Shown here piece by piece: positions 51,701 through 64,000 of a stretch of 64,000 nt of DNA. Within the stretch, counting starts at the first letter, position 1, and each line of letters opens with the position of its first letter. The notes under the pieces are model-generated. The model ran no database searches, was not told the origin of the DNA, and saw only the letters and a program-made list of their open reading frames with translations. The DNA comes from Phanerodontia chrysosporium (taxonomy: Eukaryota; Basidiomycota; Agaricomycetes; Polyporales; Phanerochaetaceae). Made by a program: the position numbers and the translations under genes. The DNA lies in contig MJGA01000008.1 in NCBI GenBank assembly GCA_001910725.1, forward strand, positions 806,001-870,000, read 5' to 3'.

Positions 51701-52104
51701 TGTTGTGTTGCGCAGACTCTGGGATGGAGGAGAATAGCGAGATAATATTTTTGGGGATTATTCTACGAGTTTCATAGCCTACATAGATTTACTTCCGTGT
51801 ATCTAAAGTAGGTAATAATCAAATGAAAAATGCTCGCTCTGAAAAAGGCGGAATCTAATCTAAAGGATTGATAAGGGAGCGCTGAGGATTGATAACTACG
51901 GAATCTAATCTACTGATTACTCAGAGCGGAAAAGAGGAATGGGGAAGGCGGCGAGACTTGTCCCGCCGCGAGACCTTGTAAGGATACGCCGACGGCGCAT
52001 CTTTTGATGGGCGCTCGGCGCTTCAGCCCTCCGGGCGCGCCAGAGCTTTTGACTTCCGTCTGCATGACGGTTTTGAGTGCGCCCTGGCGGGGCGACTTTC
52101 AACA
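51701..52104 (-). repeat. Copia 3' LTR (404 bp)
   Basis: TGTTGTGTTGCGCAGACTC ... TTTCAACA. The first 125 bases differ from the right LTR at three positions, all C/T (AGCGAG/AGTGAG, TTCTAC/TTTTAC, TTTCAT/TTTTAT). Confidence 0.9.
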
Positions 52105-52117
52105 CTCCCCCTCAACG
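52105..52117 (-). other. Copia polypurine tract
   Basis: Reads CGTTGAGGGGGAG on the minus strand, directly before the 3' LTR and overlapping the pol stop codon (TGA, 52112-52114). Confidence 0.7.
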
Positions 52118-53254
52118 AGTGGCCATGTTGGCGAGGGCGAGCGCGGCGCGGTGCTTGGGTCGCGGGAGCGCCTTGGTGAACATGTCCGCGATGTTGTCTG
52201 CGGAGGCGCAGTGGATGACCTTGATGTCGCCGTCGGTGATCCGCTCGCAGATGAAGTGATGGCGGATGTCGATGTGTTTCGAGCGCGCGTGGAATTGAGT
52301 GTCGTACGCGAAACTGATGGCAGCTTGATTGTCCGTGTGAAGGACTGTGGGAGCACCGGGCGGGAAGCCTAATTCGGAAAGTAGGCGGTGGAGCCAGACA
52401 GCTTCCTTGGCGGCGTGAGAGAGGGCGATGTACTCGGCCTCCATGGTGGAGAGGGCGACGGTCAGTTGTTTCTTGGAGTTCCAGCTGACGATGCCACCAG
52501 CGTAGCCGGATACTGAGCGGCGGTCATGTGCCTGAGCCCAGTCGGCATCCGAGTAGCCAGTGATGTCATTATCGGCGCGTCTTGCGAAAGTGAGCCCGAC
52601 GTCGGTCGTGCGCTTGAGGTAGCAGAAGACGTGCTTGACGGCGGTCCAGTGCATGGCAGACGGGCGCGATGTGAACTGAGAGAGGGTCTGGACGGCGAAG
52701 GCGATGTCGGGACGCGTGACGGTAGCAGCGTACATGAGGGATCCGATGGCGGCGGCGTAAGGTACATCGGCGGGCGTCTGATCTTCGGGCATCGGCTCGA
52801 GTTTCACGCCAGGGTCCAGCGGCGTCGAGACGGGCTTGCAGTCTTGCATGCCGAAACGTTCGAGGATCGTCTCGAGGTAGCGTGTTTGTAGAATAGAGAT
52901 CGTGCCATTCTTGCGCGTGACTTGTAGTCTGATGAAAGAGCTGAGGGTGCCGTTCGTGGTGATTGCGAAGTGTTTCGCGACGTCGACCTTGAATTGATCG
53001 AAGATGGAGCGCTCGCCGTAGAGCGCGGTGTCGTCGACGTGAACGAGGGCCATATTGAGTTTCCCCTCGTGCTTGAAGTACAGGCAAGGGTCGGCCTCGG
53101 AGCACGTCCAGCCCATGAGGTTTGTGAGGACGTGGTTGAGCAGGTGGTTCCAGACGCGGCCTGCCTGCTTGAGTCCGTAGAGGGCTTTGATGAGGACGTA
53201 GACTTGCCCTGATCCGTCATCGTAGCCGGGTGCCTGGCGCATGTAGATCTCCTC
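52112..53254 (-). pseudogene. Copia reverse transcriptase C-terminal part and RNase H
   Basis: It continues the gene interrupted at 60833: EIYMRQAPGYDDGSGQVYVL, KALYGLKQAGRVWNHLLN, the catalytic HVDDTALYG, then thumb and connection. RNase H follows with GYSDADWAQ, STMEAEYIALSHAAKEAVWL, LHTDNQAAISFAYD and SKHIDIRHHFICERI, ending TGA at 52112-52114. The part itself is undamaged. The Asp-Asp pair and the RNase H acidic residues are in place, so decay of this element is confined to the 5' half plus the nested insertion. Confidence 0.88.
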
Positions 53255-53463
53255 TGTAAGAGTCGAGAATGAGGTAGATTCTAGACAGGAATACAAGATA
53301 CTAGCTTGGGGAAAAGGAGACGAGAGTCCTAGCCTTATATACGTCTAACCTAGCCTATGACTAAGGAAGGGACAGCGACATTAGTAAGGCAGAAACTGGC
53401 TGAGTAATAATACAACGATAATGAGTAAGAAAAAGAAAAATATTTGTCAGCACATTCGTAACA
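53255..53463 (-). repeat. Gypsy 3' LTR (209 bp)
   Basis: TGTAAGAGTCGAGAATG ... ATTCGTAACA; identical to 60624-60832. Confidence 0.95.
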
Positions 53464-53479
53464 TTAGCTCCTCCTCGAC
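53464..53479 (-). other. Gypsy polypurine tract
   Basis: The minus strand reads GTCGAGGAGGAGCTAA immediately before the 3' LTR. The final TAA is also the stop of the extended pol frame. Confidence 0.6.
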
Positions 53480-56400
53480 GATCGAACCCCGTGAGATCCT
53501 TCAAGCCTCCTCTTTAATAGCATCGACGTCAATGACCTCCACTCCAGCTGGAGGGGCCCGTCCTTTGCCCTTGCGTTGGTGACGGCGACGTGGGGTGGGG
53601 ATGATGTTGGATGGGCCGGCTTCAGGCCGCGCCGATGATCTACGGCGCAGGTTGGGTTGAGGATGGCCGCGATGCTGCGCGGTGCGTTTGAGCTTGGCGA
53701 GCTGTCCTCGTTCGAGTGTCTCTCCGATGGGATGATCGAAGTACGTGTCCCAAACTCCCGCGACGAGGGCTCGGACGTTGTCATTGCCTTGGGCGAACTC
53801 GTGCAGGAGAGCGTCGTGGTTCGCCTTGGTTTCTCGAACGAGTTGCATCTTGCGGCTGATGGCCATGTCCATTTGCATGACGGTTCCTCGGAGTGTTGCG
53901 TGGATGCCGTCAATTTCTTCGTCGAGATCGTTGATGCGCTGGGCGAGGTCGACGTTGAGCTGTGCAAGACCTGCATATAGCGCGCAGGGGGCTTTCTTTG
54001 CTGCCTCAGCTCGTAGCGCTTCGGCGGTGTGATCGTGGTGGAAGATGTTGGTGATACACTCGCGGGGGTGAGGACGGCTGGCTCTTTCGTCGAGTTGCTT
54101 GTAGAGGTCTTCCATGAGGAGTGCGTATGCGTTAGGGCGGTAGTCGAGGGTAAAGGGTGCGGGTTGGTCGACGACCATAGGCTCGGGGATAGGGACGGGC
54201 TCGGGAGAGGGCTCGGGTGTGTTGCCGGGGGTGACATATTGGTTACGGATGACCTCGACCCAGTGACTGTCAGCTTCGAGCTTCTTGCTTGTTTGATGGA
54301 GGGGTTCGTCGAGGTTGTGCTGTTCGGCTTCGTTGAGTTCCTTTTGCCATTCTCGGAGGGCGTGGCTGACAATGTTGACTCTGTCGTGCTTGTGGAAGTT
54401 GTCGAATGCTGTGAGGATGAAGCCACGGATGTGATCTTTGTTTGTGGTGGCACCGACGTTGTCGGGGATACGGTGGAGAAGGTGGTGGATGAGGAGGTAG
54501 CGGGTGAGTTGGTGTGTGTCATTGCATAGGTCGATGGCGGAAATCTCGAAATTGTTGGGGAACGTGACAGTGTCGTTGATGACCTGCTCGTCGACGGTGT
54601 TGACGGCGGTGGCGTTGTTGGAGGACGTGGAGGATGACATGTCGATTCTGGGTCTGAGTGTTGGGAGCGGGGTGTAGCTGCGTCGAGTGGTGGAGGCTGC
54701 TGTCTTCCAGCTTTCAGAGCTCGCGTCCTTTTATATTCCTCAAGGAGTTCCTTGGCATTGGTCAGATGTGACTCGGGTTCCCATGAGTTTTCTGCCGTTG
54801 GTTGGTCTTTCCACCTTATCAGGTATCTTCTTCCGTTGCCCCAGGGTCTATCTGCCAAGATGGCTTCGACTTCGTACTCCTCGTGTCCGTCGATAAGGTC
54901 AGGTGGTGGTGCCAAGAAGTTCTTCCCGTGTTGCGCCGTTTCGTGATAGGCTGATAACAGAGACGCATGTACCACGGGGTGGATCTTTGTTGTCTTCGGG
55001 AGTTTCAGCTTGTACACGAGGCGAGATAGAACCTTCTCGATCTTGTACGGCCCGTGTCTTTTGGGCGCAAGCTTCTTGAACGGGTAGCCGTCCTCGTGGT
55101 GAGTCATTTCCAACCAGACCTTCTGACCTTCTTTGAATGGTTCGAAGTGTCGGCAAATTCGGCCCGCCATCTGCGCTGTTGCGTAATCCATCGCCGCGTT
55201 GGCTTCCTCTTGTGCACGTTGTCGTCTGCGGAACCATTCGAGAGTTGACGGAACCTTGGACTTTGCAAATTGCGTCGGGAATGCCATCGGATGCGATCCG
55301 TACATCAGGAAGAATGGTGATTGCTTCGTGGCCGAGTGTTCTCGGTTGTTGAACGCGAATTCCATATTGACAATGTAGTCGGACCAATCGTGTGGGTGAT
55401 TCGAACAGAATATCCGAAGGTACGACTCGATTTCGCGGTTCATGCGTTCGGTTTCGCCATCTGTCTGCGGGTGGTATGCCGTGCTCATTCGTTGATCGGT
55501 TCCTGTCAACTTCCAGAGTTCCTCCATGAATCGTGAGTTGAATTGCGGGCCTCTATCCGAGAGGAAGACGTCTGGCATGCCAAACCGCCGAAAGACATTG
55601 TCGTGGTAGTACGTGGCTGTCATTGTGGCGTCGGTCTTCTCCGTGCATGGAGTAAGAATTACCCCCTTCATAGAGTCATGGTCGACCACGACCATAAGGG
55701 CAGTAAAACCCTTGGACAGCGGGAGATGCGTGATGAAGTCGCAGGTAACGAAGGCGAATGGCCGGTCGCGCTTCGTTCCTTTTATAGGTTGCAACGGTGG
55801 TTTCGTGGGATGCGTGTTAACCTTCATCTGTTGGCATGTGGCGCAGCCTTTGACATACGCCGAAACAAAGAATCGTAGGCCTGGCCAGTAGAAATCGCGG
55901 AGTACTAGTTCGGCCGTCTTGAATCGCCCAGGGTGCCCTGATACTGGGGAATCATGATAGAGGGCTACCACTCGTCGCCGAAGGGCAGTGTTCTCAGGGA
56001 CGTAGCATTTGTCGCGATAGAACAACAGCCCCCCATCCATGGTCCAGTCAGGTCGCTCGGTGCGAACTGGCATCGGGAGATTCGGGTCGTGCAGGGCTGC
56101 AAGGATCTTCGTGGCAAATTCGTCACTGTCGAGGGTCGATTGGATGAATCGTCGGAGGTCAAGATCAACCGGGTGGTCATGGACTGGGATGTCGTCATCA
56201 TCCTTTGCTAACATGCTGGTGGCTAGAGACAGGGAATGGATCCTGCGAGTGTGGAAGAGCTCGTCCGGTAGAAGTATGAGGTCAACGTTGTCATCTGCGG
56301 TATGGCTGGGGTGTAGGGTCCTGGTCATGGCATCAGCCTGAACGAGTTGCGTGCCCGGGCAGTGATGTAGAGAGAAGTTGAACTGTGACAGGAAAAGGTG

Positions 56401-58938
56401 CCAACGCGCTTGTCGTCGGTTGAGGCGTCGAGGGGACCGGAAGTACGTCAGGTTCTTATGATCGGTGAGGATGCGGATCGGTTGTTTTGCCCCCAGGAGA
56501 TAGTGGCGCCAGGCTTCGAGTGCTCGAACGATCGCAAGGAGTTCCCGATCGTATATCTCGTAATTGCGTTCCGCGGGTAACAAGCTTTGTGAGAGGTACG
56601 CCACGGGGTGCCATTCACCGTTCGAATCCTGTTGGCGTAGTACCGCCGCTGTCGCGACAAGCGAGGCGTCGCATTCGAGAACGAACGCTTTCGATGGATC
56701 TGGAGTCATGAGCACCGGTGCCGAGGTAAACCTTCTTTTCAGTTCTTGAAAGGCTTCTTCGCACGCTGGGGACCAAAAGAAGGGTACGTCCTTCCTGGTG
56801 AGTTCGACGAGGGGTCGTACGATGTCAGAGTAATGGTCGATAAACCTCCGGTAGAAATTGCCGAATCCCAGGAACCCTCGGACCTGTTTGACGGTGGTTG
56901 GTGTAGGCCACTCGAGAACGCCCTTCACCTTGACCGGGTCCATAAGGATCTGGTTATGTGAGATGATCATCCCAAGGAACTCGACTTGAGTGACGTGGAA
57001 GTCGCATTTCTCCGGTTTGACGAATAAATCGTTCTTCGCTAAACGTTCGATTACCCGTAGCGTCTTTTGTTGCAGGTCTTCGTCATCGTGGCCACAGATG
57101 AGGATATCGTCCATGTAGATCTTGAGCCATCCTTCACCAAGCATATCGCCAAAGATGTCGTTCATCATGGCTTGGAACGTCGCGGGTGAATTGCAGAGAC
57201 CAAAGAACATGACGGTAGGTTCGAATAGTCCGCGTTTCGTTTTGAACGCTGCTTTCCACTGGTCCCCATCCTTGATTCGAACGTTGTTATAGCCCGAGCG
57301 AAGGTCCATCTTGGTGAACTTGTGGAATCCTTTGACTTGATCGAGGAGGTCGGAAATGAGGGGTAAAGGATACGCGTTCCTGACTGTTCCTTCGTTGAGG
57401 TAACGGTAGTCTTGACAGGGTCGGAGGTTGCCATCTTTTTTGCCGACGAAAAAGAAGGGTGATGCCATAGGAGACTTCGACGGTCGGATGTAACCTTTGC
57501 GGAGGTTTTCGTCGATAAACTCGTTCATCTTTTCCTCTTCCAGTGGCGACAGTGGGTAAACCTTACAATCTTTAGGCAAGAAGTCAGGTTTGAGGTCAAT
57601 AGCATGATCATAAGGTCGGGATTCAGGGAACCGTTCGGATGCTTGTTTCTCGAAGACGTGTTGATACTTGGCGAGGTACGACGGAATATCCTTAGGTTTC
57701 GTTTGTGCTCCGTCTTCTTGTGCGAGTGCCATAGCCGGGTTGATTTTCGCGTTGATCTGCAGGTCCCAGATGGTTTGTGCCGCGGTAGAGCCGATGGGTA
57801 CCGTGTAGACCGTGGGATCACCAGGATTATAAAATGCCACAAAGTCAGCGTCCGTGTGTAGTTCTGCGAATTCCGTTGTGCCGATAAAGAACTCCGGGGG
57901 TGCATCAGGGTCTTGTGCGACTCTTACTGCTCGTATAGCGACGTTTAGCAGGTGTTGGAATTTGTCCTGTAGTTTTACGCCTGTCGAGCCAAAACCCTGT
58001 TCCCCTCGTTTTGTGTCGTCGAGTTTCTCTACCTCTTGTACCTGCGGGAGGCGAATTTGCTCGGTAATGAGTTGAGCTACTCGATCTCCTACTTGGACGT
58101 GGAACGAATTGTCCGTGTTGTTGACCAGTATGACTTGAAGTTCTCCAGTGTAATCCCGATCCACAACCCCTGCTGCGACGTCGACGCCTTTGAGAGCGAG
58201 GCCGCTTCGTGGTGCGATCCGTGCGTAAGTTCCTGTCGGCGGTTTAACCTTGATTCCTGTTGGGACTTTTACTCGCGAACGAGGTGGGATGTCACAGTCA
58301 ATGGTGGATGACAAGTCGAGCCCGGCAGCTTCGCTGCTTCCTCTAGTTGGAAGGTGCCCTCCTACTCGTTCGACCAGTATGTGGGTCTTGAGGAGTTCTT
58401 CTTCGTCCTGGCTAGCAACTTGGATTATTTGTTCCTCCTCGTCTGGTAGTTCTTCAATCGTGGGTCGCGGGACTGAAAAGTCCAAGGTTCCTTTCTTCCA
58501 ATCGATACGAGGATTGTGTTTTCGCAGCCAATCGATTCCCAGGATGGCTTCCTGTTTACCGAGGTGTGTGACGAGGAACTGTTCCTTTACGATCTTGGGT
58601 CCGATGGTGACATGGGTTTCGACATAGTTGCGGATATTCCCTAGTTGATTCGGAGTTCCGTCTACGTTGTACACCGGTATTGGTTGTCGAAGTGGTTTTT
58701 CCCGAAGTCCAAGCCGCCGAACGACCGTTCGGTCGATGAACTTCCCTTGAGCTCCAGAGTCGATGAGGGTAGTAACTTTGTTTCCAGCATTGGTACTCGA
58801 TTCAATGATAACAGGGATCTTCATTGACTGGTTCTTCATATCGGCTACTAGTACAGAAGAAATCGAGTATCGTTGAGGATGAACAGCTGGCGTTCTCCTC
58901 ACTGCTGAAAACCCTCGTCTGGGTTGTTGTTGGCCCAT
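53464..58938 (-). CDS. Gypsy Pol: protease - dUTPase - RT - RNase H - integrase - chromodomain
   Basis: First ATG at 58938; the frame is open for 1824 codons. Protease: IDSGAQGKF, Asp60. dUTPase (about 186-320) shows all five trimeric dUTPase motifs: AAGLDLSS (204-211), PRSGLALKG (243-251), GVVDRDYTGEL (257-267), GDRVAQLI (284-291) and RGEQGFGSTG (311-320). Reverse transcriptase (about 455-650) has KIYMDDILI at 607-615. RNase H: Asp757, Glu799, Asp826. Integrase zinc finger: His995, His1002, Cys1032, Cys1035; catalytic Asp1067, Asp1128, Glu1164 (D,D-35-E). Chromodomain about 1354-1405 (YEVEAILADRPWGNGRRYLI, WEPESHL). After residue 1430 the frame is Ser/Thr/Pro-rich and overlaps another ORF, so the true C-terminus is unsure. 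The element copies RNA in the particle, limits dUTP, and targets chromatin for integration. Confidence 0.93.
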   Translation of the reverse strand: MGQQQPRRGFSAVRRTPAVHPQRYSISSVLVADMKNQSMKIPVIIESSTNAGNKVTTLIDSGAQGKFIDRTVVRRLGLREKPLRQPIPVYNVDGTPNQLGNIRNYVETHVTIGPKIVKEQFLVTHLGKQEAILGIDWLRKHNPRIDWKKGTLDFSVPRPTIEELPDEEEQIIQVASQDEEELLKTHILVERVGGHLPTRGSSEAAGLDLSSTIDCDIPPRSRVKVPTGIKVKPPTGTYARIAPRSGLALKGVDVAAGVVDRDYTGELQVILVNNTDNSFHVQVGDRVAQLITEQIRLPQVQEVEKLDDTKRGEQGFGSTGVKLQDKFQHLLNVAIRAVRVAQDPDAPPEFFIGTTEFAELHTDADFVAFYNPGDPTVYTVPIGSTAAQTIWDLQINAKINPAMALAQEDGAQTKPKDIPSYLAKYQHVFEKQASERFPESRPYDHAIDLKPDFLPKDCKVYPLSPLEEEKMNEFIDENLRKGYIRPSKSPMASPFFFVGKKDGNLRPCQDYRYLNEGTVRNAYPLPLISDLLDQVKGFHKFTKMDLRSGYNNVRIKDGDQWKAAFKTKRGLFEPTVMFFGLCNSPATFQAMMNDIFGDMLGEGWLKIYMDDILICGHDDEDLQQKTLRVIERLAKNDLFVKPEKCDFHVTQVEFLGMIISHNQILMDPVKVKGVLEWPTPTTVKQVRGFLGFGNFYRRFIDHYSDIVRPLVELTRKDVPFFWSPACEEAFQELKRRFTSAPVLMTPDPSKAFVLECDASLVATAAVLRQQDSNGEWHPVAYLSQSLLPAERNYEIYDRELLAIVRALEAWRHYLLGAKQPIRILTDHKNLTYFRSPRRLNRRQARWHLFLSQFNFSLHHCPGTQLVQADAMTRTLHPSHTADDNVDLILLPDELFHTRRIHSLSLATSMLAKDDDDIPVHDHPVDLDLRRFIQSTLDSDEFATKILAALHDPNLPMPVRTERPDWTMDGGLLFYRDKCYVPENTALRRRVVALYHDSPVSGHPGRFKTAELVLRDFYWPGLRFFVSAYVKGCATCQQMKVNTHPTKPPLQPIKGTKRDRPFAFVTCDFITHLPLSKGFTALMVVVDHDSMKGVILTPCTEKTDATMTATYYHDNVFRRFGMPDVFLSDRGPQFNSRFMEELWKLTGTDQRMSTAYHPQTDGETERMNREIESYLRIFCSNHPHDWSDYIVNMEFAFNNREHSATKQSPFFLMYGSHPMAFPTQFAKSKVPSTLEWFRRRQRAQEEANAAMDYATAQMAGRICRHFEPFKEGQKVWLEMTHHEDGYPFKKLAPKRHGPYKIEKVLSRLVYKLKLPKTTKIHPVVHASLLSAYHETAQHGKNFLAPPPDLIDGHEEYEVEAILADRPWGNGRRYLIRWKDQPTAENSWEPESHLTNAKELLEEYKRTRALKAGRQQPPPLDAATPRSQHSDPESTCHPPRPPTTPPPSTPSTSRSSTTLSRSPTISRFPPSTYAMTHTNSPATSSSTTFSTVSPTTSVPPQTKITSVASSSQHSTTSTSTTESTLSATPSENGKRNSTKPNSTTSTNPSIKQARSSKLTVTGSRSSVTNMSPPATHPSPLPSPSLSPSLWSSTNPHPLPSTTALTHTHSSWKTSTSNSTKEPAVLTPASVSPTSSTTITPPKRYELRQQRKPPARYMQVLHSSTSTSPSASTISTKKLTASTQHSEEPSCKWTWPSAARCNSFEKPRRTTTLSCTSSPKAMTTSEPSSREFGTRTSIIPSERHSNEDSSPSSNAPRSIAAILNPTCAVDHRRGLKPAHPTSSPPHVAVTNARAKDGPLQLEWRSLTSMLLKRRLEGSHGVRSSRRS
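53501..54640 (-). CDS. Gypsy ORF3, 379 codons, overlapping the 3' end of pol
   Basis: ATG at 54640 (MSSSTSSNNATAVNTVDEQV), in a different frame from pol. The composition is that of a normal globular/helical protein: LCNDTHQLTRYLLIHHLLHR, GFILTAFDNFHKHDRVNIVS, HALREWQKELNEAEQHNLDE. A coiled-coil-like segment follows (AQRINDLDEEIDGIHATLRG, VMQMDMAISRKMQLVRETKA), and the C-terminus is basic (TPRRRHQRKGKGR). The pol frame over the same bases is low-complexity Ser/Thr/Pro, as expected for a shadow, though it stays open up to the LTR. I recognise no family; position 3' of integrase is where envelope-like or accessory ORFs lie in some LTR elements. No signal peptide or membrane helix is visible. Confidence 0.65.
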   Translation of the reverse strand: MSSSTSSNNATAVNTVDEQVINDTVTFPNNFEISAIDLCNDTHQLTRYLLIHHLLHRIPDNVGATTNKDHIRGFILTAFDNFHKHDRVNIVSHALREWQKELNEAEQHNLDEPLHQTSKKLEADSHWVEVIRNQYVTPGNTPEPSPEPVPIPEPMVVDQPAPFTLDYRPNAYALLMEDLYKQLDERASRPHPRECITNIFHHDHTAEALRAEAAKKAPCALYAGLAQLNVDLAQRINDLDEEIDGIHATLRGTVMQMDMAISRKMQLVRETKANHDALLHEFAQGNDNVRALVAGVWDTYFDHPIGETLERGQLAKLKRTAQHRGHPQPNLRRRSSARPEAGPSNIIPTPRRRHQRKGKGRAPPAGVEVIDVDAIKEEA

Positions 58939-59891
58939 TCCTCCATCAGCCCGTCAAGGCGTTTGATGGCCTCGTCTTTAGACAGCGTTCGGATGGTTCG
59001 TTTCGCGGCTTCGAACGGGTCTTGTTGCGGCTGCTGAGGGCTGCCGGCCTGGGTGCCGGTTTCAGCTTCAACGACGTTAGTTTGCCGTTCGTTTGTCCGT
59101 CCGTTCCATCCTCCTCTGTTGGACTGGAATTGGTTTCCTCCTCTGCCTCCTCCTCGTCCTCTTCCTCGGCCTTGTCCTCGACCTCGTCCTCCAGACCGGC
59201 ATTCGCGTGCGAAGTGTCCGAACCGTCCGCAGTTGAAGCATTTGATGTTGTTCTTTGTGGTTATAGCGTCGACATCCATCGCATTAGGGTCTTTAGGTGT
59301 CGATTTATGACCGGTGTCGTGGCTCGGGTGCATGGCGGCGTCAATGCCTTGGGCGATATCCTGCCAGAGGCGAAGGGTCTCGGTGGCATAGAGTCGTCGT
59401 CTTTCTGCGACTACTTGGGGTAGGGTCATGTCGTGAACGTCCTTGTTTAGTGCCGCCTTGTAGTCTGTGATGAAGGGACGTGTAGCGTCGTCGTCGGTAA
59501 TGTCGATTTCGGCTTCGACAAGGCATGCGTCAAACTTAGTGTTGAGGTCGCAGACTGATCCCCTTCCTTGCTTTAACTTCTTTAACGCGTTAAATGCATC
59601 TGCACGGTGGTCGGTAGGTTGGTATCGGGAGAGAAATTCTTGGGCGTATTGGGCCCACGTGGGCCAGCCTGTCCGAAGGTACCATCGTTCCTTCATCATC
59701 GACCAGGTCCGCGGTGCCTGGTGCTGACCGTCTTCCATGAGTGAATTAGCGAATACGATCTTCTTTGCTTCTGTGTTGAACTTGGAGGGCTTGGCTTCGA
59801 AGTAGATTTCGCATTGGTGAACGAAGTTTCGCGCTTGTTTCGGGTCGCCTTTGAAGGTTTGAGGTCTGGCGATGTCGGCGTCGTTGCGCAT
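58899..59891 (-). CDS. Gypsy Gag (retrotransposon gag with CCHC knuckle)
   Basis: ATG at 59891 (MRNDADIARPQTFKGDPKQA), 330 codons. The capsid-like part has ARNFVHQCEIYFEAKPSKF, WSMMKERWYLRTGWPTWAQY and YQPTDHRADAFNALKKLKQG. The knuckle CFNCGRFGHFARECR is followed by an Arg/Gly-rich RNA-binding stretch (GRGQGRGRGRGGGRGG). The C-terminus is helical (TIRTLSKDEAIKRLDGLMEE). The TGA stop (58899-58901) overlaps the start of pol by 40 nt. Gag forms the virus-like particle and packages RNA. Confidence 0.9.
   Translation of the reverse strand: MRNDADIARPQTFKGDPKQARNFVHQCEIYFEAKPSKFNTEAKKIVFANSLMEDGQHQAPRTWSMMKERWYLRTGWPTWAQYAQEFLSRYQPTDHRADAFNALKKLKQGRGSVCDLNTKFDACLVEAEIDITDDDATRPFITDYKAALNKDVHDMTLPQVVAERRRLYATETLRLWQDIAQGIDAAMHPSHDTGHKSTPKDPNAMDVDAITTKNNIKCFNCGRFGHFARECRSGGRGRGQGRGRGRGGGRGGNQFQSNRGGWNGRTNERQTNVVEAETGTQAGSPQQPQQDPFEAAKRTIRTLSKDEAIKRLDGLMEEWANNNPDEGFQQ
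58908..58914 (-). promoter_or_regulatory. -1 ribosomal frameshift site G GGT TTT
   Basis: In the gag frame the codons are GAG GGT TTT CAG CAG TGA, giving the heptamer G-GGT-TTT of X-XXY-YYZ form two codons before the stop. Slipping back one base leads directly into the pol frame (GGG TTT TCA GCA). The pol frame is exactly -1 relative to gag. The downstream stimulatory structure was not assessed. Confidence 0.7.
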
Positions 59892-59900
59892 ATCGAGTAA

Positions 59901-60575
59901 CTATCTGATGATGTCGGGAGGTAACCCTCCTTGAGGTGGGGGCCCCACTGGGTTTCCGCTCCCGAATGGTCCTCCAGGTGGTCCCCCGGGTGGTCCTCCA
60001 GGTGGTCCTCCGGGTGGGTTTCCTCCTTCCTCTTCGAATGGATCTCCTCCATCTCCTCCGGATGAATTTCCTCCACCACCTCCGGATGGGTCTCCGGATC
60101 CCCCATCTCCTCTCGGATTCTCCTTGTTGTGGATGGCTGCTATGATGGCCCTCTCTACTTCTTCCGGGGACAGTGGGGCTGCGGTGAAGATCTTCTGTTG
60201 GATGCTTTCCGCAAGGTCGTCTGCGCTTAGGTTGTGTATCATGTGGTGGCGTTCCTGCTGCAGGGATGTTTCAGATTCCTCGAGGTAGTCTCCTTCTCCG
60301 TATAAGTTTAGTATCGTTCGGTATAGTTGTCTTCCTATTTTGGGGAACTGCTCGAGTTGCCCCTCGGTTGGGGCTTGTTTCCCTACGAGAAGTCGATCGT
60401 GAGGTGCTGCTCGTATTACTCGCCATGGGCATGGTTGTAAGTTGCATGTGTAGATGACAGGTGTCCCTTCTCTGTTCTTTACGCGATATTCGTCTCTTCT
60501 TTCGGTTGGGCAATAGTAGTGTATGAACGTCTTGCACTGTTCGAGGTAGGGATTGGATATTGGTTCTTGAGACAT
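59901..60575 (-). CDS. Gypsy ORF0: N-terminal Gag extension, ends in TAG in frame with gag
   Basis: ATG at 60575 (MSQEPISNPYLEQCKTFIHY), 224 codons. The first half is a folded-looking domain with CKTFIHYYCPTERR and YTCNLQPCPWRVIRAA (Cys-rich, perhaps metal-binding), then a helical part (SADDLAESIQQKIFTAAPLS). The last 60 residues are Gly/Pro repeats (GGPPGGPPGGPPGG). The TAG at 59901-59903 is followed after three sense codons by the gag ATG in the same frame. It may be a separate product, or joined to Gag by suppression of the TAG. I know no named domain for it. Confidence 0.7.
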   Translation of the reverse strand: MSQEPISNPYLEQCKTFIHYYCPTERRDEYRVKNREGTPVIYTCNLQPCPWRVIRAAPHDRLLVGKQAPTEGQLEQFPKIGRQLYRTILNLYGEGDYLEESETSLQQERHHMIHNLSADDLAESIQQKIFTAAPLSPEEVERAIIAAIHNKENPRGDGGSGDPSGGGGGNSSGGDGGDPFEEEGGNPPGGPPGGPPGGPPGGPFGSGNPVGPPPQGGLPPDIIR

Positions 60576-60611: not shown

Positions 60612-60621
60612 AAGCTAGTAT
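60612..60621 (-). other. Gypsy primer-binding site, apparently self-complementary to the RNA 5' end
   Basis: Two bases after the 5' LTR the minus strand reads ATACTAGCTT, the exact complement of AAGCTAGTAT at 60676-60667 in the same LTR, where transcription is expected to start. This is the geometry of Tf1/sushi self-priming elements. I see no match to a tRNA 3' end beginning TGG. Confidence 0.7.
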
Positions 60622-60623
60622 AA

Positions 60624-60832
60624 TGTAAGAGTCGAGAATGAGGTAGATTCTAGACAGGAATACAAGATACTAGCTTGGGGAAAAGGAGACGAGAGTCCTA
60701 GCCTTATATACGTCTAACCTAGCCTATGACTAAGGAAGGGACAGCGACATTAGTAAGGCAGAAACTGGCTGAGTAATAATACAACGATAATGAGTAAGAA
60801 AAAGAAAAATATTTGTCAGCACATTCGTAACA
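60624..60832 (-). repeat. Gypsy 5' LTR (209 bp) with promoter
   Basis: Read on the minus strand it has TATATAAGGC at 60710-60701. About 34 nt downstream lies AAGCTAGTAT (60676-60667), the predicted 5' end of the RNA. AT-rich sequence with ATTATTACTC and TTTCTTTTTC lies upstream. Confidence 0.85.
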
Positions 60833-62235
60833 TCCTCCTCGAGCAGTCCGTGGAGATAAGCACCAACAATGTCGAGTGCGTCAGAGTCGAGGTTTTCGGT
60901 AGCGGCGAGAGCTGTGACGACGCGGAAAGTTTCCTGGCGGACGACAGGTGAGAAGGTGTCGAAATAGTCTTGTCCGGCGATTTGAGAAAAGCCTTGTGTG
61001 ACGAGGCGAGCCTTGTACTTGTCGATCGAGCTGTCCTGGTGGCGTTTGATGGCAAAGACCCATTTGCTGCCAATGGCGTTGCGGCCCGGGGGCAGCTCCC
61101 CCTTCTTCCAGGTGCCATTGGCTTCGAGCTGAGCCATCTCGGCGTCCATGGCGGCCTTCCATTGCGGCCAGTCATCGCGGGTCTTGCATTCGTCGACTGA
61201 GCGAGGGTGGTCCGAGTCCATAGCGGCGTAGCAGAAGTACGCCTGGGCGCTATGGTACCGATCCGGTGACGGATCGGAGTCGTCGTCCTCCGAAGGTGGC
61301 TTCGGGATGTGTGTGCCAGTTTCGTGTAGGGCGCGGTAGTCGATACGAGTCTTCTGACGTGTGGGGCGTATCGTGACGTTCTTGAGCTGTGACTTGAAGG
61401 GTGCCCAAGCGGCGTCTTCAGGCTTGTTTGGCGTTGAGGGTGACGCCTTGACCGATTCCGAAGTGGAGGTATCCGGTGCTTGCGATGTCGGCGGCGGCGG
61501 TGTCATACCTGCGGCGGGGGATGGCTCGGGAGCGGTCTCACTCTCCCCCTCAAGCGTGAAGGGGATGCTTGGAGACTCCCGCTCGCGCTCAAAGATGACG
61601 TCGCGCGAGACCAGGACTTGCCGGAGGCCTGGGACGTAGTAGCGCCAGCCGGCGCTAGACGCGCTGATCCCGGTGAAGATGTATCGCTCACTCTTCGCAG
61701 CGAGTTTGTCGCGCCGGTTCTCGGGGACGAGCACCCAGCAGGGTGTGCCGAAATCGCGCGCAGCGCGCACATCCGGTTTCTGTCCCCAGAGAGCCTCGTA
61801 GGGGGTCTTGCCTGAGAGCGCGCGGGTGGGTGTGCGGTTCTGAAGGTAGCAAGCGTATGCCCACGCTTCTTGCCACAGGAACTTGGAGAGGGAGCGCGCG
61901 ATCAGCATCGCGCGTGCACGTTCCATCAGCGTGCGGTTGAGACATTCTGCGACACCATTCTGAGCGGGGGAATAGGGTGCCGTGGTGCGGATGATAATGC
62001 CGCGGAATTCGGCGTAAGTGCGGAATTTCCCCTCCGTGTATTCTTTCGCGTTGTCCACATGTAGGACCTTGACGCGGCGGCCTAGCTGCCGCTCGATGAG
62101 TTGTTTGACTTTCTGGAAGCGGTCGAGGGCGGCGTCGCACGTCTTCATGAAATCGATCGCGACGAAACGCGACTTTGCATCAGTGAAAGTGATCGCGTAG
62201 ACATTGCCCTGCAATGACGCAACGCATGCCGGTCC
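60833..62235 (-). pseudogene. Copia integrase and first part of reverse transcriptase
   Basis: The rve core shows YAITFTDAKSRFVAIDFMKT, VKVLHVDNAKEYTEGKFRTY and SPAQNGVAECLNRTLMERAR (second Asp and Glu of the catalytic triad). The Copia-typical GKTPYEALWGQKPDVRAARD and CWVLVPENRR follow, then a variable linker. The reverse transcriptase begins near SKWVFAIKRHQDSSIDKYKA, ARLVTQGFSQIAGQDYFDTF and SPVVRQETFRVV. The frame is broken at 60833 by the Gypsy insertion, in the codons just before the EEEIYM-type motif. Confidence 0.85.
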
Positions 62236-63875: not shown

Positions 63876-64000
63876 TGTTGTGTTGCGCAGACTCTGGGAT
63901 GGAGGAGAATAGTGAGATAATATTTTTGGGGATTATTTTACGAGTTTTATAGCCTACATAGATTTACTTCCGTGTATCTAAAGTAGGTAATAATCAAATG
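63876..64000 (-). repeat. Copia 5' LTR (partial, cut by window end)
   Basis: First 125 bases of the LTR, collinear with 51701-51825. Confidence 0.9.

Follow-up and report, generated by a model that had tools for sequence, protein, structure and literature searches.

A trimeric-type dUTPase domain between protease and reverse transcriptase in a Ty3/Gypsy chromovirus of Phanerodontia chrysosporium

Does a retrotransposon of a wood-rot fungus carry a complete dUTPase inside its polyprotein and, if so, is the domain kept by selection and from where was it obtained? Retroviral dUTPases lie upstream of the protease in betaretroviruses and between RNase H and integrase in non-primate lentiviruses. 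Neither arrangement was found in the pol gene described here, in which the Pfam domain order is protease, dUTPase, reverse transcriptase (PR-DUT-RT). An initial sequence-only reading had proposed both this order in a chromodomain Gypsy element of a fungus and its departure from the beta- and lentiviral patterns, and the Pfam order bears out the two proposals. All coordinates refer to the window, the whole stretch of 64,000 nucleotides that was analysed.

A complete dUTPase domain in pol

The domain is located where the sequence-only reading had placed it, on the minus strand, which that reading left unstated; the plus strand of the same interval encodes no dUTPase-like protein.

57979..58383, minus strand: dUTPase domain (pol residues 186-320), with five motifs and Pfam, PDB, and fold matches

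A Pfam search gave a significant match to PF00692 at pol residues 195-320, covering positions 4-129 of the 129 in the profile (E 2.5e-39). Pattern matching recovered all five motifs of trimeric dUTPases (AGLDL, PRSGLA, GVVDRDYTG, GDRVAQ, and RGEQGFGST), including the Asp and Tyr of motif 3 and the C-terminal arm. The stretch 57940-58395 matched 80 distinct PDB sequences at E <= 0.001 (top E 2.2e-41). An AlphaFold model of the domain (mean pLDDT 89.7) has dUTPase 4oop_B as its closest solved structure (E 1.1e-15) and also matches the dUTPase folds of FIV, EIAV, and visna. The PF00692, PDB-sequence, and fold matches rule out a chance ORF or a pseudodomain. As the sequence-only reading had held, the trimeric-type dUTPase domain is complete and in frame in pol.

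Structure of the element

The element that carries the domain has the following features.

60833..60837: target-site duplication GAGGA, 5' side
60624..60832, minus strand: 5' LTR, 209 bp, TG...CA, same sequence as the 3' LTR
60612..60621, minus strand: putative self-priming site, 10 nt, complementary to LTR positions 157-166
59901..60575, minus strand: N-terminal part of gag, 224 aa, assigned by position
58899..59891, minus strand: second part of gag, 330 aa, with Retrotrans_gag and a CCHC knuckle (ORF list and Pfam)
58908..58914, minus strand: GGGTTTT heptamer, candidate -1 frameshift site in the gag/pol overlap
53464..58938, minus strand: pol ORF, 1824 aa, PR-DUT-RT-RH-IN-chromodomain (ORF list and Pfam)
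58522..58785, minus strand: aspartic protease PF13975, residues 52-139 (Pfam)
56962..57444, minus strand: reverse transcriptase PF00078, residues 499-659 (Pfam)
56380..56775, minus strand: RNase H PF17919/PF17917, residues 722-853 (Pfam)
55468..55989, minus strand: integrase zinc domain and core, PF17921 and PF00665, residues 984-1157 (Pfam)
54727..54876, minus strand: chromodomain PF00385, residues 1355-1404, E 1.4e-12 (Pfam)
53501..54640, minus strand: ORF3, 379 aa, in a different frame from pol, whose 3' part it overlaps
53255..53463, minus strand: 3' LTR, 209 bp, identical to the 5' LTR
53250..53254: target-site duplication GAGGA, 3' side

LTRs with a target-site duplication, a gag with a CCHC knuckle, and the pol order PR-RT-RH-IN identify it as Ty3/Gypsy, and the chromodomain at the integrase C-terminus (PF00385) as a chromovirus. 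The two gag ORFs of this copy lie in one frame that is broken between them by a stop codon, while the frame is undivided (591-600 aa from stop to stop) in sibling copies L011 and L012 and in the four family-B copies read, L017-L020. Pol is probably entered by a -1 frameshift from gag and not via an ATG; the GGGTTTT heptamer is kept in five of the six sibling copies in which the site was located (eight copies were read) and was not found in family B. ORF3 has no Pfam match and shows purifying selection, and the last ~390 residues of pol (after about residue 1430) look like a mostly passive, unselected overlap with it.

Copies and related families in the host genome

The sequence-only reading had allowed for a chance capture by one copy of the family. 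In the family of the present element (family A), a dUTPase lies within 3 kb of the reverse transcriptase at eight of the nine scored RT places, and this recurrence rules out a one-copy capture. Comparison of seven of the eight other full-length copies gave a dUTPase dN/dS of about 0.08-0.26, with a stop inside the dUTPase in two of the seven. Catalytic motifs are changed in some copies, for example at the motif-3 tyrosine (L005), a motif-3 glycine (L003), and the motif-5 arginine (L007).

In two families of this genome the dUTPase is placed between protease and reverse transcriptase, in two others it lies behind the chromodomain, and one further family has none. Family B shares the PR-DUT-RT order (PF00692 E 9.4e-40), and 89 of the 146 nucleotide differences between families A and B fall at codon position 3. 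Between these families dN is 0.28 for the dUTPase, against 0.11 for the reverse transcriptase and 0.13 for the integrase, so that the dUTPase changes faster; dUTPase dS is saturated between A and B, and no dN/dS ratio was derived from this pair. The five motifs are intact in families A, B, and E, and also in D save for N in place of G in motif 5. Of the 150 RT places that were scored, 107 were labelled family C by their identity of 57-60% to A; among the dUTPase matches listed, none of these 107 has a dUTPase within 1.5 kb and four have one within 3.5 kb, and the single C element examined in full has none. These places without dUTPase indicate that the domain is dispensable for element success in this host. 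The host genome also has its own cellular dUTPase and one match to the uracil-DNA-glycosylase family. The host species is very probably Phanerochaete chrysosporium: a single protein compared, Cel7D (1GPI), has a 244-aa stretch that occurs in this genome at 100% identity, and PMC5917092 gives 1GPI as Cel7d of P. chrysosporium.

Phylogeny of the dUTPase domain

Domain profiles identified the PR-DUT-RT order in 27 of 101 homologous proteins (10 of the 27 also with integrase and chromodomain), the profiles being built from chromoviruses, so that 46 of the 101 showed dUTPase alone. The phylogenetic analysis grouped domains from both Pol positions in two supported clades: (i) families A and B, with dUTPase between protease and reverse transcriptase, together with family E and P0020, with dUTPase at the C-terminus, and nine short database proteins (support 99/95); (ii) P0015 and P0057, of the PR-RT placement, together with P0028, P0046, and P0047, of the C-terminal placement, and P0023 (support 100/97). 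The tree label '_cell' means only a short database protein, and some proteins so labelled probably represent fragments of retroelements. The RT tree likewise unites P0015, P0057, P0028, P0046, and P0047 in one clade (100/99). The D dUTPase grouped with A/B/E at a support of 82/45, which is weak, and fell outside them in a quick tree of 144 rows, where the A/B/E clade had an unstarred SH-aLRT of 94.

A one-residue deletion is present in the element dUTPase and absent from the host cellular dUTPase. A single origin of all dUTPases with this deletion, with 36 of the 144 rows forced into one clade, was rejected (p-AU 0.023).

The occurrence of both placements within each of two supported clades suggests relocation within elements and not solely repeated cellular capture. 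The dUTPase of fungal chromoviruses may be a mobile cassette, shifted between the protease-RT linker and the post-chromodomain tail by inter-element recombination, a reading to which we give slightly less than an even chance. If it is true, the published view, which is that dUTPase elements seem to have gained the domain independently from different sources, would be incomplete.

Discussion

The domain is most likely a selected dUTPase of a recently inserted family-A Ty3/Gypsy chromovirus of a white-rot fungus, and is predicted to act on dUTP during reverse transcription. Occupying the protease-RT linker of Gag-Pol, it would be synthesized as part of that polyprotein through the putative -1 frameshift, and would trimerize either in the particle or after a presumed release from it. 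By hydrolyzing dUTP to dUMP where reverse transcription takes place, the enzyme would lower the dUTP/dTTP ratio, and may thereby keep uracil and glycosylase-triggered breakage from the cDNA when host dUTPase is low. Such a uracil-avoidance role is plausible; a related one was already proposed for dUTPase-bearing elements in a survey (PMC2864245), and another source discusses the retroviral dUTPase as excluding uracil from cDNA (PMC4531489).

Three other explanations were weighed against this one. The locus might represent a previously unseen kind of element, a chromovirus with dUTPase between protease and reverse transcriptase, as could be thought from the sequence-only reading, which gave beta- and lentiviral positions only; the novelty so implied is refuted by the literature, in which the order is described for PosPlaTy3-5 of Postia placenta, dUTPase elements are reported for P. 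chrysosporium and Tuber, and the PR-RT placement of dUTPase for rotifers and planarians, and we regard it as practically nil. A functionless passenger taken from the dUTPase gene of the present host is very unlikely. Grouping the host cellular dUTPase with A and B is not formally rejected by the AU test (p 0.099), but enforcing this clade worsens the tree by 39.6 log units, the host and A domains are just 52% identical, and the host form lacks the one-residue deletion; the low dN/dS among family-A copies and the matching order in other database elements also speak against it.

It is improbable, though less so, that the dUTPase fold mainly serves the structure or processing of Gag-Pol, through spacing or through trimer contact within the particle, and that catalysis is of secondary importance. 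The quicker protein change of the dUTPase relative to reverse transcriptase and integrase would suit such a role, as would the case of the lentivirus BIV, in which a dUTPase-related gene is reported as critical for replication even though the protein it encodes has no dUTPase activity (PMC4261571). However, families A, B, and E retain all the motifs, D does so save for the one residue, and the two different Pol positions in related families speak against a fixed structural role. A selected dUTPase acting during reverse transcription is the preferred reading. With related chromovirus families having dUTPase in mid-Pol, at the Pol end, or not at all, this one genome provides a natural comparison, which allows testing of whether the benefit of the enzyme depends on its position in Pol, and of whether elements pass the domain to one another or recapture it.

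Comparison with known systems

The kind of element with dUTPase in the PR-RT placement is already known. Judging by its title, a 2008 paper of Novikova and Blinov reportedly deals with dUTPase-containing Metaviridae of Phanerochaete chrysosporium, which would be of matching kind and very probably from the same host species. Novikova et al. (2010, PMC2864245), surveying chromodomain elements, describe PosPlaTy3-5 of Postia placenta as a Gypsy element with dUTPase between protease and reverse transcriptase, which by this description resembles family A, both being Gypsy elements of wood-rot basidiomycetes with the same dUTPase placement. They also give a C-terminal dUTPase in PosPlaTy3-4 and an N-terminal one in PosPlaTy3-3, and note that some of the elements have an 'additional ORF'. 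The literature also lists dUTPase elements in Tuber and planarian elements with dUTPase between protease and reverse transcriptase. Juno, Vesta, and TelKA of bdelloid rotifers share this placement with family A, but lack a chromodomain and inhabit animal hosts (PMC5408684). Retroviral dUTPases have the fold in common with the family-A domain, whereas retroviruses are not chromoviruses and carry the dUTPase elsewhere in Gag-Pol.

A complete dUTPase within pol

The pol frame of the window element, a member of a Ty3/Gypsy chromovirus family here called A, encodes, by profile search, protease (PR), dUTPase (DUT), reverse transcriptase (RT), RNase H (RH), integrase (IN) and chromodomain in this order, which bears out the sequence-only reading of the element as a fungal PR-DUT-RT chromovirus. 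The coordinates given there for the dUTPase hold, and its strand, left unstated, is minus. The features are:

57979-58383, minus strand: dUTPase
53464-58938, minus strand: pol ORF, 1824 aa counted from the first ATG
53501-54640, minus strand: ORF3, 379 aa, overlapping the 3' part of pol in a different frame
60624-60832 and 53255-53463: LTRs of 209 bp, an identical pair
60730-62214: copia ORF with integrase core, PF07727 profile positions 2-96
52112-53296: copia ORF on the other side, PF07727 profile positions 90-242
51701-51825 and 63876-64000: 125-bp repeat (98%)

The claim that the domain is complete agrees with several lines of evidence. A PF00692-type Pfam match covers pol residues 195-320 (E 2.5e-39), and pattern matching found AGLDL, PRSGLA, GVVDRDYTG, GDRVAQ and RGEQGFGST, the five dUTPase motifs. 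The stretch matches 80 distinct PDB sequences (E <= 0.001), and an AlphaFold model built from 43 sequences (mean pLDDT 89.7, with the last 22 C-terminal residues less certain at 61-64) is closest to the plant dUTPase 4oop (E 1.1e-15).

Structure and insertion site of the element

The window element is flanked on either side by GAGGA, and its identical LTRs imply a recent insertion. It is nested within a Ty1/copia element, inside the RT gene of the latter, with the GAGGA duplication at the joint and the copia RT domain PF07727 split between the two sides (profile positions 2-96 versus 90-242). The 125-bp repeat is probably the LTR of this copia element, with the window edge cutting through it.

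The gag gene of the window copy is broken: ORFs 59901-60575 and 58899-59891 share one frame with a stop intervening, and the genomic copies L011 and L012, as well as copies L017-L020 of a second chromovirus family, B, have gag as one frame that runs 591-600 aa between stops. The gag and pol frames overlap, pol being in -1 relative to gag, and the overlap contains GGGTTTT (58908-58914). Eight sibling copies were read at this site (L009-L016); the site pattern was found in six, with the heptamer identical in five and off by one base in the sixth, and the heptamer is absent from family B. Ten nucleotides just inside the 5' LTR (60612-60621) are complementary to LTR positions 157-166, 34 bases past the start of a TATATA box, an arrangement that resembles Tf1/sushi self-priming and marks a putative self-priming site.

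Copies of the dUTPase and selection

The genome (39.0 Mb, 145 contigs) was searched with the dUTPase, and the best 150 of 188 candidate matches were scored; the counts, tallied by hand, are lower bounds. They comprise at least nine full-length family-A dUTPases, the window included, and at least one partial (88-100% identity), at least 25 of family B (68-70%), at least three old copies (61-74%) and at least 112 matches at 50-54%. The domain is therefore not confined to one copy, as a chance capture would be, and family B carries it as well.

When seven family-A copies (L002-L008) were compared with the window copy, L001, dN/dS of the dUTPase was 0.11, 0.17, 0.22, 0.08, 0.26, 0.15 and 0.15, respectively, with stop codons omitted; L006 and L008 contain an internal stop, and several copies have motif changes, including Y78F (the motif-3 tyrosine, L005), G80E (L003) and R126W (L007). 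The ninth full-length copy (C118:9247), outside this comparison, has two stops. Between families A and B, 89 of the 146 dUTPase differences fall on codon position 3; dS is saturated, and dN is 0.28 for the dUTPase, 0.11 for RT and 0.13 for IN. The element thus carries a complete dUTPase under selection at a defined position in Pol.

ORF3 and the end of pol

Across 53501-54640, codon position 3 of ORF3 takes 16 of the 18 differences between the window and L009, giving dN 0.002 and dS 0.064 in the ORF3 frame and dN 0.021, above dS 0.003, in the pol frame. Six more copies lean the same way, clearly in L010 and L012-L015 and more weakly in L011 (ORF3 dN 0.033, dS 0.143; pol frame 0.056 and 0.058). 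Since the pol frame looks unselected here, the functional end of pol probably lies shortly past the chromodomain. ORF3 has no Pfam match but has a distant homologue in family B (27% identity, 157 columns, E 1.8e-14); the family-A and family-B pol tails beyond the chromodomain do not match. Differences between family-A copies in this region are mainly transitions (for example 15/18, 29/31 and 152/179), a pattern that cytosine deamination would give.

Families with and without dUTPase

Three further chromovirus families of the genome, C, D and E, differ from A in the placement or presence of the domain. Family B (L017) has the order PR-DUT-RT-RH-IN-chromodomain, as in A, and in D (L021) and E (L025) the dUTPase follows the chromodomain and lies at the C-terminus of Pol (copies L021-L028); in L021, N replaces G in motif 5. 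No dUTPase was matched in L038, the single family-C element read, whose RT is 60% identical to that of family A. When the three families A, B and C are aligned, the dUTPase occupies the PR-RT linker of A and B, and C has this linker without the domain.

The best 150 of 393 candidate RT places, assigned to families by identity, were compared with the listed dUTPase places (150 scored and six more), so that the following are counts of scored places and not of the whole genome. A listed dUTPase lies within 1.5 kb of RT in 7/9 places of A, 24/26 of B, 3/3 old and 0/107 of C, and within 3 kb in 8/9 of A and 5/5 of D; for C, 4/107 have one within 3.5 kb and 10/107 within 5 kb. The many family-C copies without dUTPase show that its benefit to the element is conditional at most. 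In the likely mechanism, the enzyme would be made as part of Gag-Pol by -1 frameshifting, released by the protease and assembled into a trimer, and would hydrolyse dUTP near reverse transcription, so that the cDNA would gain less uracil.

Apart from the elements, the host genome contains a cellular dUTPase gene interrupted by introns (C1:787034, splice sites placed by eye), and one match in it belongs to the uracil-DNA-glycosylase family (E 1.4e-7). Residues 2-245 of a 245-residue fragment of PDB 1gpi are 100% identical in this genome, and PMC5917092 names 1GPI as Cel7d of Phanerochaete chrysosporium; on this one protein, the host is very probably that species. Among named proteins, those most similar to the coproporphyrinogen oxidase encoded in the window come from Cubamyces sp. 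BRFM 1775 (90%) and Phanerochaete sordida (89%).

Origin of the dUTPase and comparison with known elements

In an RT tree of 54 rows, A and B group at 100/100, and D and E group with their nearest database relatives at 100/97; C adjoins A+B at 91/71, which is not strong, and all of these join the database proteins P0015, P0057, P0028, P0046 and P0047 in a 12-member clade (100/100). The dUTPase tree (49 rows hand-picked from 144, with few columns, 136) contains one clade of A, B, E, P0020 and nine short proteins (99/95) and another of P0015, P0057, P0028, P0046, P0047 and P0023 (100/97). Family D joins A/B/E weakly (82/45) and is placed elsewhere in a quick tree of all 144 rows, where A/B/E has support 94. 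Both dUTPase clades mix PR-RT and C-terminal placements, confirmed by Pfam coordinates for P0015, P0057, P0028, P0046, P0047 and P0020, which favours at least two moves of a dUTPase cassette within the fungal elements; a possible alternative is independent capture from donors that closely resemble one another. Cassette movement would qualify, without overturning, the view of Novikova et al. 2010 (PMC2864245) that such elements seem to gain the domain independently.

By hand count, 36 of 101 dUTPase-bearing homologues contain the Ty1/copia RT domain PF07727 (for example P0027, P0029 and P0031), with the order integrase, RT, dUTPase in P0027. Because a passage of PMC5408684 describes dUTPase as rare among retrotransposons and reported only in basidiomycetes, copia elements carrying it may be undescribed. 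Badnaviruses are a further reverse-transcribing group with predicted dUTPase domains, found among the BFVD matches (Zingiber, Dioscorea and Taro bacilliform viruses).

Fungal dUTPase elements are cited in passages of PMC2774666, PMC5408684 and PMC6431247, and a dUTPase between PR and RT is reported in rotifers (PMC5408684) and planarians (PMC6431247). PMC2864245 proposes a benefit in non-dividing cells and cites earlier reports of dUTPase elements in P. chrysosporium and in Tuber melanosporum. In the Postia placenta elements that it describes, the domain is N-terminal (PosPlaTy3-3), C-terminal (PosPlaTy3-4) or situated between PR and RT (PosPlaTy3-5). The last of these shares its dUTPase placement with the window element; the PR-DUT-RT chromovirus is thus an element kind already published, very probably for the host species as well.
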